Part shown: in pieces, positions 1,404-41,935 of the stretch
Layout: every line of letters starts with the position of its first letter
How positions within the stretch are numbered: the first letter of the stretch is position 1
From: Deltaproteobacteria bacterium
GTDB taxonomy: Bacteria > Desulfobacterota > Desulfobulbia > Desulfobulbales > Desulfurivibrionaceae
Length of the DNA stretch: 41,935 nucleotides
Assembly: GCA_021847425.1 (NCBI GenBank)
Contig: JAJZRF010000025.1
Span: 1 to 41,935 of the forward strand
Direction of reading: 5' to 3'
Position numbers and translations under genes: made by a program
The notes under the pieces: model-generated
The model's input: the letters and a program-made list of their open reading frames with translations, nothing else
The model's database searches: none
What the model was told of the DNA's origin: nothing

Positions 1404-3659
1404 ATGGATGATTTACGAAAGCGGCTGCTCAAGACGGAAGAACGCACCAACTACCTGAGCCAGATCAAGGACGGTGTTGAGTGGGGGAATCTTTCCGGCC
1501 TGCGGGAGAAATTTGTCACCCTGCGGGACAGGTTTTATGAGTACACGGAAGAACAGTTGTCCGAGGAAATCGGGGCCTTTGAAGAGTCCCTGTCCTTTCT
1601 GGAAGGTCGTTGCGAAGAGACCCTGACCTCCATGGACCGGGTGCGCATTGTCCGCAATCCCCACCGGTTTTCCCTGAAAGACATCCTTGAGAATGTCTAT
1701 GAGGATTACACCGAACTTGGCGGCGCCGAGGAGGTCAGCATTGACCCTTCCATGGTCGCGGCCAGGGCGAGTATCGTGCGGAGGGTGAAAAACAAGTCGG
1801 TGATGCAGCAGGTCATGGTCATCGGTCATGAAAAAGGGCATGGCGAGGAGTACCGCAACGGCGGCTGCAGCAAGCCCTGGGGCAACGAGAAGGCTCTCCG
1901 TTACATGAAGGTCGCCGAAACCGAAGGCATTCCCATCCATTTCTATATCTTCACCCCCGGTTCTTTTCCGGTGGAGGATTATCCCGGCGCGGGCCAGCAG
2001 ATCGCGCGGAATCTCTACGCCATGGCCAAGCTGCGGGTGCCGATGATTTCCGTTACCTCGGAAGGCGGTTCCGGCGGGGCCGAGGCCGTGGGCATGGCCG
2101 ATGCCCGGTTGATGTTTTCCCACGGCTACTACTCGGTTATCTCCCCGGAAGGCGCGGCAGCCATCGAGGGCAAGATCCGCGAGGGCGAGAAGATGCCCAA
2201 GGAGCTGGTGGAGGCCTGCGCCGAGCGGCTGCACATCACGGCGGAAGAAAACCTCAAGCTCGGGACCATCGACCGGATTGTCTACGAGCCGGCCCTGGGC
2301 GCAAAACGGGATGACTTCGGCTTTTTCCGGCAGCTCAAGAGCGAGATCATCCGGGCCACCGACGAGGTGGTGCTGAAAACCAAGAGCCTCAGGGCTTTTC
2401 GCGCCTATGAGTTGACCATGAAGAAGAGGGAAGGACAGGTTGTTGAGGAACCGCACATCGAGATTTCCTGGGAGCTCAACGAGGATGAAGTCAAGCGGTT
2501 GCTCTGTTACCGTTCGAGAAAATACCGGGCCATGTCCTGTCAGGCTTACAGCGAAGAGGGCTCGACCTGTTCCGCCTTCTGCCGGAAGGCGAGAAGGAGC
2601 ATGGCCAAACTGTACTACAGCTTCCGCTATGATTTGCTGAAGAGTCAGCAGAAACAGGTGAAAAAGGTTTTTCAGGATGTGTCCGGCGAGGGCTCGGTGC
2701 TGCTCAAGCAGGTTTCTTCACCGATCACCGCAGCCTACGATTTTATTTCGCGAAAGCCTGGGGTTCGTCCGGGAAAACCTCCCGTCCCAGGCAGCGGTGG
2801 CGGGGAAGACCCCATCGAGTTCGGAGATATCTATACCAGCCCGCTGGCCAACGAGGACCGCACCGTCACCTGCCCCAATGCCGAGAAGCAGGGGTGCAAG
2901 GATCTCTGGGTGCCCGACCTGTACGGCGAATTCGGCGGGGTCTGCGAAAATTGCGGCCACCATTTCCCTCTGGAATATCAATGGTATCTCAAGCATCTTT
3001 TTGATCCGGATTCCATCCGGGAATTCAATGGAGGGGTCTGCGCGGGCAATCCCCTGACCTATCCGGGCTTTGAAAAGAAATTGCAATCCGCCATTGCCAA
3101 AACCGGCCGGAAAAGCGGCATCATCACCTTCGATGCCAGGGTCATGGGCGTTGATCTGGTGGTGGCCATGCTGTACAGCGATTTCAGAAACGGCACGGTC
3201 GGGGCCGCCGAGGGCGAAAAATTCGTGCGGGCCTGTGAATCGGCCAAGCTGAAACGGCGCCCCTTGCTTTCCTATGTGCACACCACCGGCGGCATCCGCA
3301 TCCACGAGGGCACCCTGGGCGTGGTGCAGATGCCCAAGTGCACCATGGCGGTGCGGGAATACATCGACTCCGGTGGCCTGTACATCGTGGTCTACGACAA
3401 CAATTCCTATGCCGGGCCGGTGGCGAGTTTCCTGGGCTGTTCGCCGTATCAGTTCGCCATCCGTTCCAGCCGGGTGGGTTTTGCCGGGCCTCGGGTTATC
3501 CGCGACACCACCGGCGAGGATATCCCGCCCGATTACCATAACGCCCGCAATGCCCTGCAACGTGGTCATATCCAGGGCATCTGGGACCGCCGCGAGTTTA
3601 GGCGGAATCTCCATAAGTCCCTGCTGACCATGGGCGGCGGCAATTTGTACTACCGCTAA
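1404..3659 (+). CDS. Fused acetyl-CoA carboxylase carboxyltransferase alpha/beta (AccA-AccD order)
   Basis: 751 aa. Transfers the carboxyl group from biotin to acetyl-CoA. The N-terminal part (about residues 60-330) is AccA-like: GHEKGHGEEYRNGG, KALRYMKVAE, EGGSGGAEAVGMADA and YSVISPEGAAAIEG are the family signatures. The C-terminal part (about 485-751) is AccD-like and begins with a zinc ribbon with Cys490, Cys498, Cys514 and Cys517 (CPNAEKQGC ... CENCGHH), followed by a crotonase-fold domain with GVVQMPKC and GFAGPRVI. The two halves are joined by a basic linker and a Pro/Gly-rich stretch (about 450-475). E. coli has two separate genes; here alpha comes first in one chain. ATG 1404 has AGGTAA eight bases upstream. 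The next acc gene is separated from it by the inserted four-helix-bundle gene. Confidence 0.9.
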   Translation: MDDLRKRLLKTEERTNYLSQIKDGVEWGNLSGLREKFVTLRDRFYEYTEEQLSEEIGAFEESLSFLEGRCEETLTSMDRVRIVRNPHRFSLKDILENVYEDYTELGGAEEVSIDPSMVAARASIVRRVKNKSVMQQVMVIGHEKGHGEEYRNGGCSKPWGNEKALRYMKVAETEGIPIHFYIFTPGSFPVEDYPGAGQQIARNLYAMAKLRVPMISVTSEGGSGGAEAVGMADARLMFSHGYYSVISPEGAAAIEGKIREGEKMPKELVEACAERLHITAEENLKLGTIDRIVYEPALGAKRDDFGFFRQLKSEIIRATDEVVLKTKSLRAFRAYELTMKKREGQVVEEPHIEISWELNEDEVKRLLCYRSRKYRAMSCQAYSEEGSTCSAFCRKARRSMAKLYYSFRYDLLKSQQKQVKKVFQDVSGEGSVLLKQVSSPITAAYDFISRKPGVRPGKPPVPGSGGGEDPIEFGDIYTSPLANEDRTVTCPNAEKQGCKDLWVPDLYGEFGGVCENCGHHFPLEYQWYLKHLFDPDSIREFNGGVCAGNPLTYPGFEKKLQSAIAKTGRKSGIITFDARVMGVDLVVAMLYSDFRNGTVGAAEGEKFVRACESAKLKRRPLLSYVHTTGGIRIHEGTLGVVQMPKCTMAVREYIDSGGLYIVVYDNNSYAGPVASFLGCSPYQFAIRSSRVGFAGPRVIRDTTGEDIPPDYHNARNALQRGHIQGIWDRREFRRNLHKSLLTMGGGNLYYR

Positions 3660-3705
3660 GGCCAAAGGCCAAAGGTTCAAGGCTATAAAGGTAGAGGCTT
3701 TGGGG
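3657..3705. repeat. Left (G-rich) heptamer-repeat arm upstream of the four-helix-bundle gene
   Basis: Begins at the stop codon of the fused carboxyltransferase and consists of about seven degenerate 7-nt units of AAAGGCC / AAAGGTT / CAAGGCT type. Read on the minus strand the unit order is CCTTTAT, CCTTGAA, CCTTTGG, CCTTTGG, CCTT, which matches unit for unit the right arm at 4089-4125 including the variant CCTTG unit. The two arms can pair across the gene between them. Confidence 0.75.
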
Positions 3706-3716
3706 GGGAAGGAAAG

Positions 3717-4088
3717 TTGTCGGTGCCGCAGGTTTTTGAGGACTTTGAGGTATGGAAGCGTTCAGCCCGCTTGAGTACTGAATTGTACAAGGTGTTACGG
3801 GAATTAAAGGACTTTGGCTTCCGGGATCAGATTACGCGGGCGGGGCTTTCTATCCCGAGCAACATTGCGGAAGGTTTTGAACGCGAATCGATAAAAGAGA
3901 GTATCAATTTTTTCTCATATGCAAAGGGTTCCTGCGGGGAACTTCGTACCCAGATATACATTGGTATGGGCATCGGTTATATAGAAAGCCAGAAAGGCAA
4001 GGAATGGCGGCAGGAAACCGTGGAAATTTCCTCGATGCTGGCCGGGCTTATAAAAGCACGGCGCAGTTTTCTGCGAGAAGATGAATGA
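3717..4088 (+). CDS. Four-helix-bundle protein, S23 / 23S rRNA intervening-sequence (IVP) family
   Basis: 123 aa, all-alpha. The start FEDFEVWKRSARLSTELYK, the central ITRAGLSIPSNIAEGFER and the following INFFSYAKGSCGELRTQI are the hallmark segments of the TIGR02436-type four-helix-bundle family, which includes proteins encoded inside 23S rRNA intervening sequences and is related to the Avd accessory protein of diversity-generating retroelements. The cellular role of stand-alone members is not known. TTG 3717 is chosen because GGGAAGGAAAG lies directly in front. The gene sits between two acc genes and is flanked on both sides by heptamer arms in inverted orientation, so it looks like cargo of an inserted element. 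Its stop overlaps an ATG (4081) in frame with the next acc gene. Family assignment is firm, function is not. Confidence 0.88.
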   Translation: MSVPQVFEDFEVWKRSARLSTELYKVLRELKDFGFRDQITRAGLSIPSNIAEGFERESIKESINFFSYAKGSCGELRTQIYIGMGIGYIESQKGKEWRQETVEISSMLAGLIKARRSFLREDE

Positions 4089-4125
4089 GACCTTTGACCT
4101 TGCACCTTTAACCTTTAACCTTCCC
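4089..4125. repeat. Right (C-rich) heptamer-repeat arm downstream of the four-helix-bundle gene
   Basis: Units CCTTTGA, CCTTGCA, CCTTTAA, CCTTTAA, CCTTCCC follow immediately after the stop codon. Together with 3657-3705 they form an inverted pair around the gene. If translation of the next gene begins at 4081 rather than 4135, this arm is translated into its N-terminus. Confidence 0.75.
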
Positions 4126-4134
4126 TCATATATC

Positions 4135-4782
4135 ATGACTGACGAAATAGATTTCGACGCAATAATTGGCAAGTATCGTTCTGATCCTTTTGATTATCTG
4201 GACGTGCGGACCGCCCATACCGGCCAGGTCAGGTTCCGGGTGAAGGAAGACGCCGAGGTGGAAGGGGTGTCCGGCGAGTGGCACCATGTCCGGGGCACTC
4301 TTCTCTATGAACTGTTGCGGGAGGGGAACCAGAAGAAGATTTTCTCCTCGACCAACGGGGTGGTTTCTTTCATTCGCAGCGACTTGGAAGGGAAGTTTGT
4401 CGAAGCGGGCGAGAAGATTCTCACCATCCGGCATCCGCTGAAAAAACGCGAAATCATCGAGAATATACTCCGTCAGGTCCTGGAGCCCTTCAACGCGCCC
4501 GAGCGGGCCAAGTATTTCTTTTCCCTCGATCTGCAGGCCAAGATCGACAAGCACGGCCAGCGGGGGGTTTCCATCAAGCCCGGCGACGAGATCCTCACCA
4601 TGTCCCTGATGAAGCGCGATACTCCGGTCTATTATGCGGGAGAGCCGGGAATCATCCATTCCGTGTATTTTCAGCCCGGAATCAGCATTCCCCAGGGCGA
4701 GCCGCTGCTGGGCATCTGTTCCCAGGAGAAGCTGCCCATGATCCAGAGGATCATTACTAGGGTCAAGGCGGAATGGGAGTAA
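4135..4782 (+). CDS. Biotin-attachment (biotin carboxyl carrier-like) protein of the acc operon
   Basis: 215 aa from ATG 4135; an in-frame ATG at 4081 would add 18 residues encoded by the repeat arm. Carries the biotin that shuttles between carboxylase and transferase. The C-terminal segment fits the biotinyl/lipoyl barrel: GDEIL, then MSLMKRD in the place of the usual EAMKM, then GEPGIIHSVYFQPGISIPQG and EPLLGI. The predicted biotin-accepting lysine is Lys160. An N-terminal segment (about 22-105) has another barrel-like pattern (SSTNGVVSFI ... GKFVEAGEKILTI) but no acceptor lysine motif. The domain is much longer and more divergent than E. coli AccB. ATG 4135 has no visible Shine-Dalgarno; coupling to the upstream gene through the overlapping ATG 4081 is possible. 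A biotin ligase gene follows, supporting the call. Confidence 0.72.
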   Translation: MTDEIDFDAIIGKYRSDPFDYLDVRTAHTGQVRFRVKEDAEVEGVSGEWHHVRGTLLYELLREGNQKKIFSSTNGVVSFIRSDLEGKFVEAGEKILTIRHPLKKREIIENILRQVLEPFNAPERAKYFFSLDLQAKIDKHGQRGVSIKPGDEILTMSLMKRDTPVYYAGEPGIIHSVYFQPGISIPQGEPLLGICSQEKLPMIQRIITRVKAEWE

Positions 4783-4912
4783 CGGTCCAGCAGCACCACA
4801 TCTGCTTCGCAGTCTCGCTCTGCGCTCGCTTAGCTGTCATCGGCCTGCTCGTGTGCACTAGCACACTTCACAGGCCTCTTTCGCGCATCTGCGGCACTGC
4901 TGGACCGTTACT
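4778..4912. repeat. Nested inverted-repeat element between carrier-protein gene and birA
   Basis: A perfect 16-bp inverted repeat (AGTAACGGTCCAGCAG at 4778-4793, its complement at 4897-4912) encloses about 103 bp. Inside lie a second pair GGCCTG (4842-4847) / CAGGCC (4871-4876) and a third GTGTGC (4851-4856) / GCACAC (4861-4866) with loop ACTA. The stop codon of the upstream gene lies in the left arm. No T-run follows the outer arm, so it is not a standard terminator; it resembles a REP/MITE-like folded intergenic element. Confidence 0.7.
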
Positions 4913-4952
4913 CTTTTGAATCTGTTTTTTTGATTTTGGTTAAATAAAACCA

Positions 4953-20210: not shown

Positions 20211-20390
20211 GGAACAAGGTGAAAGGGTAACGGTGCAAGGATAAAGGGAAAAGGACTGATTTTTTCGCACCATGCACCTTGCACCTTTAGCCTTTAGCCT
20301 TTAGCCTTTAGCCTTGCCTTTAGCCTTTAGCCTTTAGCCTTTAGCCTTTGGCCTTTAGCCTTTGGCCTTCAGCCTTCAGCCTTCAGCCTT
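20211..20390. repeat. Heptamer array (CCTTTAG) with facing G-rich arm between cheA and cheW
   Basis: The right arm (20277-20390) holds about 15 units, mostly CCTTTAG, changing to CCTTTGG and CCTTCAG towards the end, with one 5-nt unit CCTTG. The left arm (20211-20253) is the G-rich complement type. GGTGCAAGG (20232-20240) pairs perfectly with CCTTGCACC (20277-20285). The array fills most of the 216-bp cheA-cheW gap. Unit number in such arrays usually varies between strains. Confidence 0.85.
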
Positions 20391-20420
20391 GTACTGAATA
20401 AAACATACGGGAGAGAAATC

Positions 20421-20975: not shown

Positions 20976-21139
20976 AAAGGCGAGGTGGAAGGCTAAAGGT
21001 GGAAGGCTAAAGGTAGAAGGCTAAAGGTAGAAGGCTAAAGGTAGAAGGCTAAAGGTGAAAGGCTAAAGGTGAAAGGTCAGGTACGGACTTCTCGGTTATC
21101 CTTTAGCCTTTCACCTTCTACCTTCTGCCTTCTACCTTG
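20976..21139. repeat. Heptamer array with facing arms between cheW and cheR
   Basis: The left arm (20976-21078) is a run of 14-nt double units of the type AAGGCTAAAGGTAG. The right arm (21099-21139) is the C-rich form. AAGGTGAAAGGCTAAAGG (21052-21069) is perfectly complementary to 21100-21117, giving an 18-bp stem with a 30-nt loop. The right arm ends 18 bp before the cheR start. It begins directly at the cheW stop. Confidence 0.85.
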
Positions 21140-26588: not shown

Positions 26589-26709
26589 AGGGTTAAGCAA
26601 GGTAAAAGGTTAAAGGCGAAAGGCGAAAGATCAGGATAAGCGGGAAAAATGAATGGCGCGGGGAATCCTTCCCGCGCCATTCATTTTTAAAACCTTTAAC
26701 CTTTAACTT
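26586..26709. repeat. Heptamer element with inverted arms between fbp and glnS
   Basis: G-rich left arm (26586-26632; AAAGGTTAAAGGCGAAAGGCG type) and C-rich right arm (26690-26709; CCTTTAACCTTTAAC) face each other around a perfect hairpin. AAAGGTTAAAGG in the left arm is complementary to CCTTTAACCTTT in the right. The fbp stop codon is at the left edge and the glnS stop codon (26703-26705) lies inside the right arm, so the element reaches into a coding end. Confidence 0.8.
26645..26688. terminator. Bidirectional terminator hairpin between convergent fbp and glnS
   Basis: AAAAATGAATGGCGCGGG (26645-26662) is perfectly complementary to 26671-26688, with an 8-nt loop. The A-run on one side and T-run on the other make it a working terminator for both strands, as expected between converging genes. 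Confidence 0.85.
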
Positions 26710-28388
26710 TTGGCCTTTTCTTTCTCCCAGGTGTCGCGCAAGGTGACAGTCCGGTTGAACACGGGTCTGCCATCCTTGGAATCCTTACTGTCCACGCAGA
26801 AATATCCCTGGCGCTCGAACTGGTAATGGCTGCCGGGCTCGGCATTGGCCAGGCTCGGTTCCACCAGGCAATCCTTGAGCACCAACAGGGATTCCGGGTT
26901 GACAAAGGTCTTGAAGTCCGCTTCGCCCGCGTCCGGGTTTTCTTCGGTAAAGAGCCGGTCGTAAAGGCGCACCTCCGCGGGCACTCCATGGGCGGCGGAG
27001 ACCCAGTGGATGGTGCCCTTGACCTTGCGGCCGTCCGGGGCGGAGCCTCCCAGGGTCTCCGGGTCATAGGTGCAATGCAGCTCGATGATCTCGCCGGTGG
27101 CCTGGTTCTTGATTACCTTTTCGCATTTGATGAAGTAGGCGTAGCGCAGCCGCACCTCGCGGCCTGGAGCGAGACGGAAGAATTTCTTCGCCGGTTCCTC
27201 CATGAAATCTTCCCGTTCGATATACACCTCCCGGCCAAAGGGGACATGGCGCTCGCCCATCTCCGGCTTTTGCGGGTGGTTCTGGGCCGTGAGGTTCTCG
27301 GTGCGGTCTTCGGGGTAGTTGGTGATCACCACCTTGAGCGGCGCGAGCACCCCCATGACCCGGATAGCGGTCTCGTTGAGATCGTCACGCACGCAGTGCT
27401 CCAGCAGAGCCACATCCACCATGCTGTCTTTCTTGGCAACGCCGATCTTGTCACAGAAGCTGCGCAGCGCCGCCGGGGTATAGCCGCGGCGGCGGATGCC
27501 GGAGAGAGTCGGCATCCGGGGGTCGTCCCAGCCGGAAACATGCCCCTCGTTGACCAGCTGCAGGAGCTTGCGCTTGCTGACCACGGTGTAGCTGAGGTTC
27601 AAGCGGGCGAATTCGATCTGCCGCGGGTGGCAGGGTACCGGCAGGTTATCGAGGGTCCAGTCGTACAGGGGCCGGTGGTCGGCAAACTCCAGGGTGCAGA
27701 GCGAGTGGGTGATCCCTTCCAGCGCATCGGAAATGGGGTGGGTATAGTCGTACATCGGATAGATGCACCAGGTGTCGCCGGTGCGGTGGTGGCTGGCGTG
27801 CAGGATGCGGTAGAGCACCGGATCGCGCATGTTTATGTTGCCGGAGGCCATGTCGATCTTTGCCCTTAAAACCCTGGCGCCATCGGGGAATTCCCCGGCC
27901 CGCATGCGCCGGAACAGATCGAGATTTTCCGCGACCGGCCGATCCCGGTACGGGCTGTTTTTGCCCGGCTCGGTGAGGGTGCCGCGGTAGCTACGGGTAT
28001 CCTCGGCGGAAAGATCGCAGACATAGGCCTTGCCGGTGGTGATCAGATGCTCGGCGTATTCGTAGAGCTGGCCGAAATAATCCGAGGCAAAGTAGAGATG
28101 CTTGCCCCAGTCAAAGCCGAGCCAGCGGACATTGTCCTTGATGGACTCGACATACTCCTGCTCTTCCTTGGTGGGATTGGTGTCGTCGAAGCGAAGATGG
28201 CAGCGGGACTTCTCGTTTTCCTTGGCAATGCCGAAGTTGAGGCAGATGGACTTGGCATGGCCGATATGGAGATAGCCGTTGGGCTCCGGCGGGAAGCGGG
28301 TGACGATATGGTCGTGCCTGCCGGTGGCGAGGTCGTCGGCGATGATGGTGCGAATGAAGTCCTGTGACTGGGTCTCGTCGCTGGTCAT
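26703..28388 (-). CDS. glnS: Glutaminyl-tRNA synthetase
   Basis: 561 aa. Charges tRNA-Gln directly with glutamine. [20 protein letters not shown] holds the HIGH signature, [11 protein letters not shown] the KMSKS equivalent, and [18 protein letters not shown] is typical of GlnRS over GluRS. The C-terminal beta-barrel anticodon-binding part is present (VIYE-like and [10 protein letters not shown]). GlnRS is not universal in bacteria; where it is present with GltX, GltX is expected to be discriminating. It lies downstream of gltX on the same strand with a 146-bp gap of hairpins and CACGAAA repeats. Its stop codon and last residues lie in a heptamer repeat arm. Confidence 0.95.
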
Positions 28389-33855: not shown

Positions 33856-33886
33856 AGAGGCAAAAGGTGAAAGGCTCAAGGTAAGA
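33856..33886. repeat. Single heptamer-repeat arm after the RNase gene
   Basis: About four G-rich units (AGGCAAAAGGTGAAAGGCTC type) directly after the stop codon. No facing C-rich arm is found within 150 bp, so this is a solo arm or a remnant. It lies between the convergent RNase and small zinc-protein genes. Confidence 0.6.
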
Positions 33887-41815: not shown

Positions 41816-41935
41816 TAACTGGAGAGTTTGATCCTGGCTCAGATTGAACGCTGGCGGCGTGCTTAACACATGCAAGTCGAACGAGAAAGGGACTTCGGTC
41901 CTGAGTAGAGTGGCGCACGGGTGAGTAACGCGTAG
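41816..41935 (+). rRNA. rrs: 16S ribosomal RNA, 5' portion (3' truncated by window)
   Basis: AGAGTTTGATCCTGGCTCAG begins at 41823, which corresponds to E. coli position 8, so the mature 5' end is near 41816. ACGCTGGCGGCGTGCTTAAC, CATGCAAGTCGAACGAGAAA and GGCGCACGGGTGAGTAACGC follow in order. The V1 region is short (GAGAAAGGGACTTCGGTCC), which I associate with Desulfobulbales-type 16S, but only about 120 nt are visible. The 190-nt leader before it carries the usual TCATTGAAAACTG-type leader motif at about 41677. Confidence 0.95.

Follow-up and report, generated by a model that had tools for sequence, protein, structure and literature searches.

Repetitive extragenic palindromic (REP) sequences and REPINs (REP doublets forming hairpins), together with TnpA-REP (RAYT), combine a small gene with many short palindromic copies that lack it, and the short tandemly repeated repetitive (STRR) sequences of cyanobacteria are tandem heptamer arrays. 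The TAACTGA repeats of the Beggiatoaceae are likewise intergenic heptamer arrays, direct with a single indirect one, and such bacterial arrays have been given tentative explanations only (PMC4679880). A different line of work concerns the intervening sequences (IVSs) of 23S rRNA. The IVS of Coxiella has GACAGAT heptamers 5′ of its S23p gene, and RNase III excises it; a solved relative from Xanthomonas is a pentamer, and the function and origin of IVSs and S23 proteins were called unclear more than 25 years after their discovery (PMC4990558). The S23 domain has also been reported in rRNA insertions of the candidate phyla radiation (PMC11270868), and kinship between S23 and Avd has been stated (PMC10053308).

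Here we analyse a stretch of 41,935 nucleotides (nt), referred to as the window, from Deltaproteobacteria bacterium (GCA_021847425.1, contig JAJZRF010000025.1), in which a gene of the S23 (23S_rRNA_IVP) four-helix-bundle family, met until now chiefly in insertions that interrupt rRNA, lies between two acc genes and is flanked by inverted heptamer arrays, its arms. We show that S23 genes and their arms behave as one unit of inheritance, at unrelated sites and in unrelated genomes. The unit in the window is probably a compact (~0.45 kb) selfish mobile DNA element, related to the rRNA IVSs and consisting of a G-rich array, the S23 gene and a complementary C-rich array. An earlier note, made from the sequence of the window, had described it as an IVS-like element between protein genes, with three cargo-less relatives nearby.

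S23 gene and arms as one unit of inheritance

The S23 assignment made in that note, and the position of the gene between a fused accAD and a gene for a biotin carboxyl carrier-like protein (BCCP), are confirmed by the profile matches in Table 1. The focal protein, whose TTG start was called mechanically, also matches TIGR02436 ('four helix bundle protein') and is a homologue of the solved structure 2GSC (E 1.6e-14); PF05635-type families are the only ones that its profile matches include, and a recognisable transposase is absent among them. The arms are equally clear: they form inverted pairs at 3658–3676/4090–4108 (79%) and 3665–3682/4105–4122 (83%), period 7 is detected at 3658–3675 and 4090–4122, and degenerate units of the left arm can be followed by eye to about 3697. 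Read outward from the gene, both sides give the unit order CCTTT, CCTTG, CCTTT, CCTTT, CCTT that the note had reported. Chance repeats are excluded by counts in shuffles and of reversed patterns: CCTTTNACCTTTNA (2 mismatches) has 41 matches in the window, against 2.85 (s.d. 1.74) in shuffles, and across the genome CCTTTAACCTTTAACCTT (3 mismatches) matches at 126 places, compared with 2 when the pattern is reversed.

S23 loci were scored across genomes by comparing the left flank with the reverse complement of the right flank (200 and 200 nt; cut 18). In the order set, 78 genomes were searched and 46 had an S23 match over the cut-off. From the 121 rows over this cut-off we kept 109, to which G014:C36, slightly below it, was added to give 110 loci; left out were four acc copies (G006, G011, G016 and G015; read apart), the second piece of L180, and seven further loci (G051:C208, G029:C41 and five of 33.5–35.3 bits). 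The 110 loci formed 75 clusters, 71 of them usable, with the S23 gene of the window represented by L087. Across these 71 dereplicated loci the median own-flank score was 23, against 10 for mismatched flanks and 10 for far flanks 450–650 nt away (maximum 18). The own right flank was the best partner in 39 of the 71 and among the top three in 56. Period 7 (z ≥ 3) appeared in 96 of 141 near flanks versus 3 of 138 far ones, and the best period in the 99 strong near flanks was 7 in 62, 14 in 17, 8 in 11 and another value in 9.

A second sample consisted of loci from named genomes, which lean towards the subfamily of the window because they are the best 80 of 584 from one scan; 3 of the 80 lacked 150 nt of flank. 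Their record titles name Proteobacteria, Bacteroidota, Verrucomicrobiota, Clostridia, Acidobacteriota, Planctomycetes and others. Scores of at least 18 were reached by 53 of 77 loci, versus 194 of 5852 pairs with mismatched flanks and none of the 73 far pairs, which refutes an architecture peculiar to the genome of the window; period 7 was found in 110 of 152 near flanks versus 6 of 150 far ones. When the sets were pooled, 107 of 147 S23 loci scored at least 18, so the earlier note's own ground for abandoning the idea, that S23 genes elsewhere have no link to such arrays, does not apply. L192, which appears to duplicate G011 (both contigs are 12,778 nt long), was taken out of the pooled 147 and the mismatch test and kept elsewhere (named scan, orientation, strict arrays, rRNA check and tree). 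As a gene control, 229 genes of the syntenic region in eight genus genomes were scored with windows of 180 and 200 nt. Three reached 18, namely the S23 gene of G006 and two cases of a gene between two cargo-less arrays. A general property of gene flanks is ruled out by this control within the genus region, and for other phyla the far pairs served as the control. The arms also have a polarity: where arrays were called strictly, those on the left had more G than C in 66 of 72 and those on the right more C than G in 75 of 91.

The repeat unit is usually 7 nt and sometimes 8, and its sequence varies by locus (AGGAGTC, AGTGAAT, AGGCACA, AGTGCTG, AGCCTTC and others), yet the two arms of one locus match. 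Arm sequence follows the protein. After 175 pairs with homologous flanking open reading frames (ORFs) had been set aside, similar arms were found in 29 of 47 pairs from different sites and different genomes with at least 70% protein identity, versus 25 of 2619 pairs below 30%. The median arm score was 11–12 below 60% identity, 25 at 70–80% (n = 37) and 38 at 80% or more (n = 10), with scores of at least 22 in 21 of 37 pairs at 70–80% and 8 of 10 above 80%; a Mantel test of arm similarity against the protein gave 0 of 500. Eleven different-site pairs were chosen for alignment, and in nine of them DNA homology was limited to the gene and its heptamer arrays; L179/L183 shared a further 48 nt outside and L182/L185 had no DNA match. 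The same unit thus stands at unrelated sites, and its homology stops where the arms stop, as in REPINs and miniature inverted-repeat transposable elements (MITEs). Because homology is limited in this way and the arms track the protein, gene and arms can be said to behave as one unit of inheritance.

S23 loci in rRNA and at the acc site

Insertions in 23S rRNA make up 3 of 190 S23 loci (L089 and L131, identical copies in one genome, and L134), and the flanks of the other 187, examined for 23S, contain none. The arms of all three rRNA loci follow the same plan, inverted and with a 7-nt unit. These loci encode two distinct proteins, which group together as one branch (support 0.99) within a clade of 117 that otherwise lies outside 23S rRNA (support 0.80, midpoint root). 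The focal copy itself has the S23 protein and complementary ends (79–83% over 18–19 nt), the latter weak, at a flank score of 17. Given the shared arm design, protein family and tree placement, the known S23-coding IVSs appear to be of one kind with the focal element, as the earlier note had held and as the Coxiella heptamers also indicate. The rRNA members are a minority of this kind in this sample.

Table 1. Features of the window discussed in the text (positions in the 41,935-nt stretch).
Feature	Position	Strand	Evidence or remark
accA/accD fusion (acetyl-CoA carboxylase carboxyltransferase), upstream host gene	1404..3659	+	PF03255 + PF01039; stop codon 3657–3659
Left arm, G-rich heptamer array (AAGGNNN)	3658..3682		Begins at accAD stop
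S23 / 23S_rRNA_IVP four-helix-bundle gene, 123 aa	3717..4088	+	PF05635 E 3.2e-32
Downstream host gene, biotin carboxyl carrier-like (BCCP)	4081..4782	+	PF00364 E 2e-4, slightly below its cut-off
Right arm, C-rich heptamer array (CCTTNNN), complementary to left arm	4090..4123		Inverted pairs, period 7
Cargo-less inverted heptamer hairpin, CCTT family	20213..20394		Pattern and period scans
Cargo-less inverted heptamer hairpin	20983..21139		Loop in opposite orientation in G006, G015
Cargo-less arms around terminator-like hairpin (by eye), between convergent genes	26596..26717		G008: GTTGAAA-type arms at same place
Lone left-type heptamer array (half element)	33861..33881		Pattern scan

In relatives the accAD orthologue lies directly 5′ of BCCP. 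An S23 gene is present between them in 5 of 17 genus genomes, that of the window included (G000, G006, G011, G016 and G015), and its frame is broken in G015. The gene is therefore not found at this place in all relatives; its presence there in all of them, without repeats, was the other ground on which the earlier note would have given up its idea. Its presence or absence at one site among close relatives is again what is seen in MITE- or REPIN-like mobile elements. Among the four intact carriers the ratio of nonsynonymous to synonymous substitution (dN/dS) is 0.09–0.16, from pairs with 2–17 synonymous and 1–8 other changes, and we conclude from these low values that the S23 protein was under purifying selection; MAG22309 in that comparison appears to be G011 again. 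Eleven of the 12 non-carriers were read. Their acc spacers, measured from the accAD stop to the first aligned BCCP residue, are 14–235 nt long and by eye do not match those of the carriers, and several hold other heptamers (AACAGCT, GCTGATA).

The BCCP start that agrees with relatives is at 4135, and a possible alternative at 4081 overlaps the S23 stop. Each of the five carriers has such an overlapping ATG, in frame with BCCP across the right arm (4081–4137), and it is possible that the arm encodes an 18-codon N-terminal extension of BCCP. Translational coupling was rejected as a general rule, with an overlapping start that opens a 400-nt ORF in just 11 of 147 S23 loci.

A few neighbouring features were recorded in passing. 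Directly 3′ of BCCP, at 4782–4915, there is a different, longer hairpin element (AACGGTCCAGCAGCACC ... GGCACTGCTGGACCGTTA), and by eye a hairpin resembling it occurs in the acc spacers of G014, G008 and G024 (L047, L048 and L057). At 41816–41935 a 16S rRNA gene begins and is truncated where the contig stops; this partial 16S is the sole match of the window to Rfam, so a known Rfam element was discarded as a candidate. Elsewhere, divergent S23 genes stand directly 5′ of an apparent uvrA, by eye, in four genomes (L157, L160, L170 and L173).

Cargo-less hairpins and competing explanations

The three cargo-less relatives announced in the earlier note are present in the window, together with a half element (Table 1). 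In 20 stretches of the same genome, 15 of 20 array groups were complete hairpins, mostly with short loops, and two stretches gave none; all 15 have AAGG in their left arm and CCTT in their right arm. Array counts, with two heptamers summed, had a median of 25.5 in the 46 genomes with S23 versus 4.5 in the 32 without, and were highest where an S23 gene bears matching arms (medians of 68 versus 3, and 31 versus 5), with exceptions such as G023, which has 3. These counts ignore kinship and include the S23 locus itself, and four acc carriers were entered by hand as having CCTTTAA arms. Of two predictions made in advance, the one for CTCAGCACT held in part, with G008 first as expected and G006 fourth of 17. 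The view of the cargo-less hairpins as a family is partly supported, by the shared heptamer, the polarity and the greater abundance alongside S23; on the other side, arrays also occur without an S23 match, and the satellite predictions held in part or failed.

Two sites show how such hairpins differ between genomes. At 20983–21139, 9 of the 13 genomes read have no arrays, a possible 3-nt GCG target duplication was seen by eye at this single site, and the loop is inverted in G006 and G015 (L274 and L279) with the arms unchanged, a sign of flipping between inverted arms. At 26596–26717 the terminator-like hairpin has no or weak arms in G005, G007, G004 and G013 and the GTTGAAA type in G008 (L305). 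From these comparisons we conclude that hairpins are not only gained but also remodelled where they stand.

A number of observations weigh against a mobile element. Transposition itself was not seen, with no firm target duplication and no recent second copy in one genome. At the acc site no clean empty site joining 3656 to 4126, which the earlier note had proposed looking for, was found among the 11 non-carriers read; the spacer there could not be aligned, and the five carriers look like one clade. The focal flank score of 17 falls slightly below the cut of 18, the arms being short, although it is among the top five of the 229 genus-region genes (median 9). More widely, 40 of 147 S23 loci score below 18, and strict arrays of period 7 to 9 stand on both sides at 56 of 151 loci. 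The second S23 gene of this genome (G000:C2:15499-15813; L002, L092) scores 10. Arrays are found in genomes without an S23 match (G030, 47; G031, 29; G002, 49), and the ACTCCTC satellites predicted in G011 failed to appear, 7 of 10 matches lying at its S23 gene or no more than about 0.8 kb away from it. Finally, the arms at 26596–26717 surround an apparently older terminator, which simple insertion does not explain. As a separate observation, by eye, AGCCTTC-type arrays lie in several pieces upstream of the second S23 gene.

Some of these points suit an explanation that we regard as unlikely though still to be reckoned with, in which the inverted heptamer hairpins are independent, grow by slippage around hairpins and terminators, and merely receive S23 genes that settle inside. 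The arrays in genomes without an S23 match speak for it, as do the two different heptamers that flank the one terminator-like hairpin at 26596–26717 in different species. Over the 20–39 kb compared, the sole period-7 array of G013, G001 and G003 occupies the acc spacer; it is made of other heptamers, and no S23 gene accompanies it. Intergenic heptamer arrays have also been published with no S23 mentioned in the text available (PMC4679880). What it fails to account for is that arms and protein stay associated from one genome or site to the next, that homology does not extend beyond gene and arrays in 9 of 11 pairs, and that the arm type of an S23 gene matches the array type of its genome, exceptions such as G023 aside.

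The earlier note had suggested that the RNA arms could be folded and cut by RNase III. Maintenance of the element for such an excision of its folded arms from the acc mRNA, as in rRNA, we consider improbable, even though rRNA IVSs are cut by RNase III (PMC4990558). Of the S23 genes between codirectional neighbours, 66 run in the sense direction and 3 antisense (both neighbours were called at 77 of 151 loci), and the RNA duplex of a locus's own arms has a median of −73.7 kcal/mol (n = 144) versus −51.7 kcal/mol for mismatched arms (n = 1152), as RNA-level upkeep would have it. Among the mismatches between arms, however, G.U does not outnumber A.C in the sense RNA (196 versus 251, P = 0.011 in the opposite direction), which argues against maintenance of the arms at the RNA level. 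The RNA fold of the whole focal element is ordinary (z −1.66; 6 of 100 shuffles equally good), and the right arm is in the BCCP frame in all five carriers, where cleavage would break it if that start is used. Given the lack of a G.U excess and the ordinary fold, a DNA-level process that keeps the arms complementary, such as templating between hairpin arms, is favoured. A domesticated S23 gene that regulates the acc operon through its arms as regulatory sites might explain the low dN/dS and the overlap of the S23 stop with a BCCP start, but it is highly improbable given that 12 of 17 genus genomes have no S23 at acc, that the frame is broken in G015 and that S23 relatives adjoin many different sequences.

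For the selfish mobile element that we prefer, we envisage the following course. The element would be expressed by read-through from the host operon, with which the predominantly sense orientation of S23 genes agrees. An S23 oligomer would recognise a DNA hairpin folded from its own arms, bind it, and help to copy and insert these arms; both movement and its mobilisation by S23 are inferred. Slippage may alter the heptamers while templating between the arms would keep them complementary, and the cargo-less hairpins of the same heptamer would be non-autonomous relatives. A much broader extension is possible but doubtful: S23/IVP proteins may be the recognition and mobilisation factors of phylum-spanning DNA elements whose ends are self-complementary heptamer arrays rewritten in each lineage. 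Each S23 protein would then recognise its own arms, scattered heptamer hairpins would be non-autonomous copies, and the 23S rRNA IVSs would be a small branch that landed in rRNA.

Comparison with known systems

This work joins the question of where IVSs and S23 proteins come from with that of the heptamer arrays, by statistics that can be rerun. That many S23 genes in several bacterial phyla are enclosed in like manner by other repeats points to a single large family of tiny mobile elements that has drawn little notice. In the literature searched, which has little coverage of subscription journals and consists mostly of listings, we found no paper linking S23 genes outside rRNA to heptamer arms. 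If S23 does read its own arms, this would be a system of mobile elements that have rewritable ends and lack any known domain of a nuclease or transposase; if it does not, the family can still be used to test how distant DNA arms stay complementary while changing.

The closest described relatives are the 23S rRNA IVSs of Leptospira and Coxiella, with which the focal element shares the protein family, a similar size (428 nt in Coxiella) and complementary ends. Also alike are the 5′ heptamer repeats (GACAGAT in Coxiella; PMC4990558), the sense gene and the decaying ORFs. Unlike those IVSs, which lie in rRNA (helix 9, 25 or 45), the focal element stands between protein genes, its arms belong to a set that varies by locus, and RNA-level selection on the arms is unsupported by the mismatch test.

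The TAACTGA arrays (PMC4679880) and the STRR sequences are alike in being tandem 7-nt arrays that are mostly intergenic, abundant and patchy across phyla; the TAACTGA report differs in having no mention of S23 in the text searched (0 matches). Avd, of the diversity-generating retroelements, belongs to a related four-helix-bundle family. The second S23 protein of this genome matches DivGenRetAVD of NCBIfam (E 3e-6, below the Avd cut-off) and PHROG 3206 (E 1.7e-7); the focal protein had no Avd match in the NCBIfam or PHROG profile comparison, and among solved structures a profile search recovered 2GSC and 2RLD but not Avd. REPINs with their RAYT genes differ from the S23 elements in that the S23 product has no transposase match and the arms consist of tandem heptamers without a fixed sequence, but the two systems are alike in plan, each with a small gene accompanied by many short copies without it.

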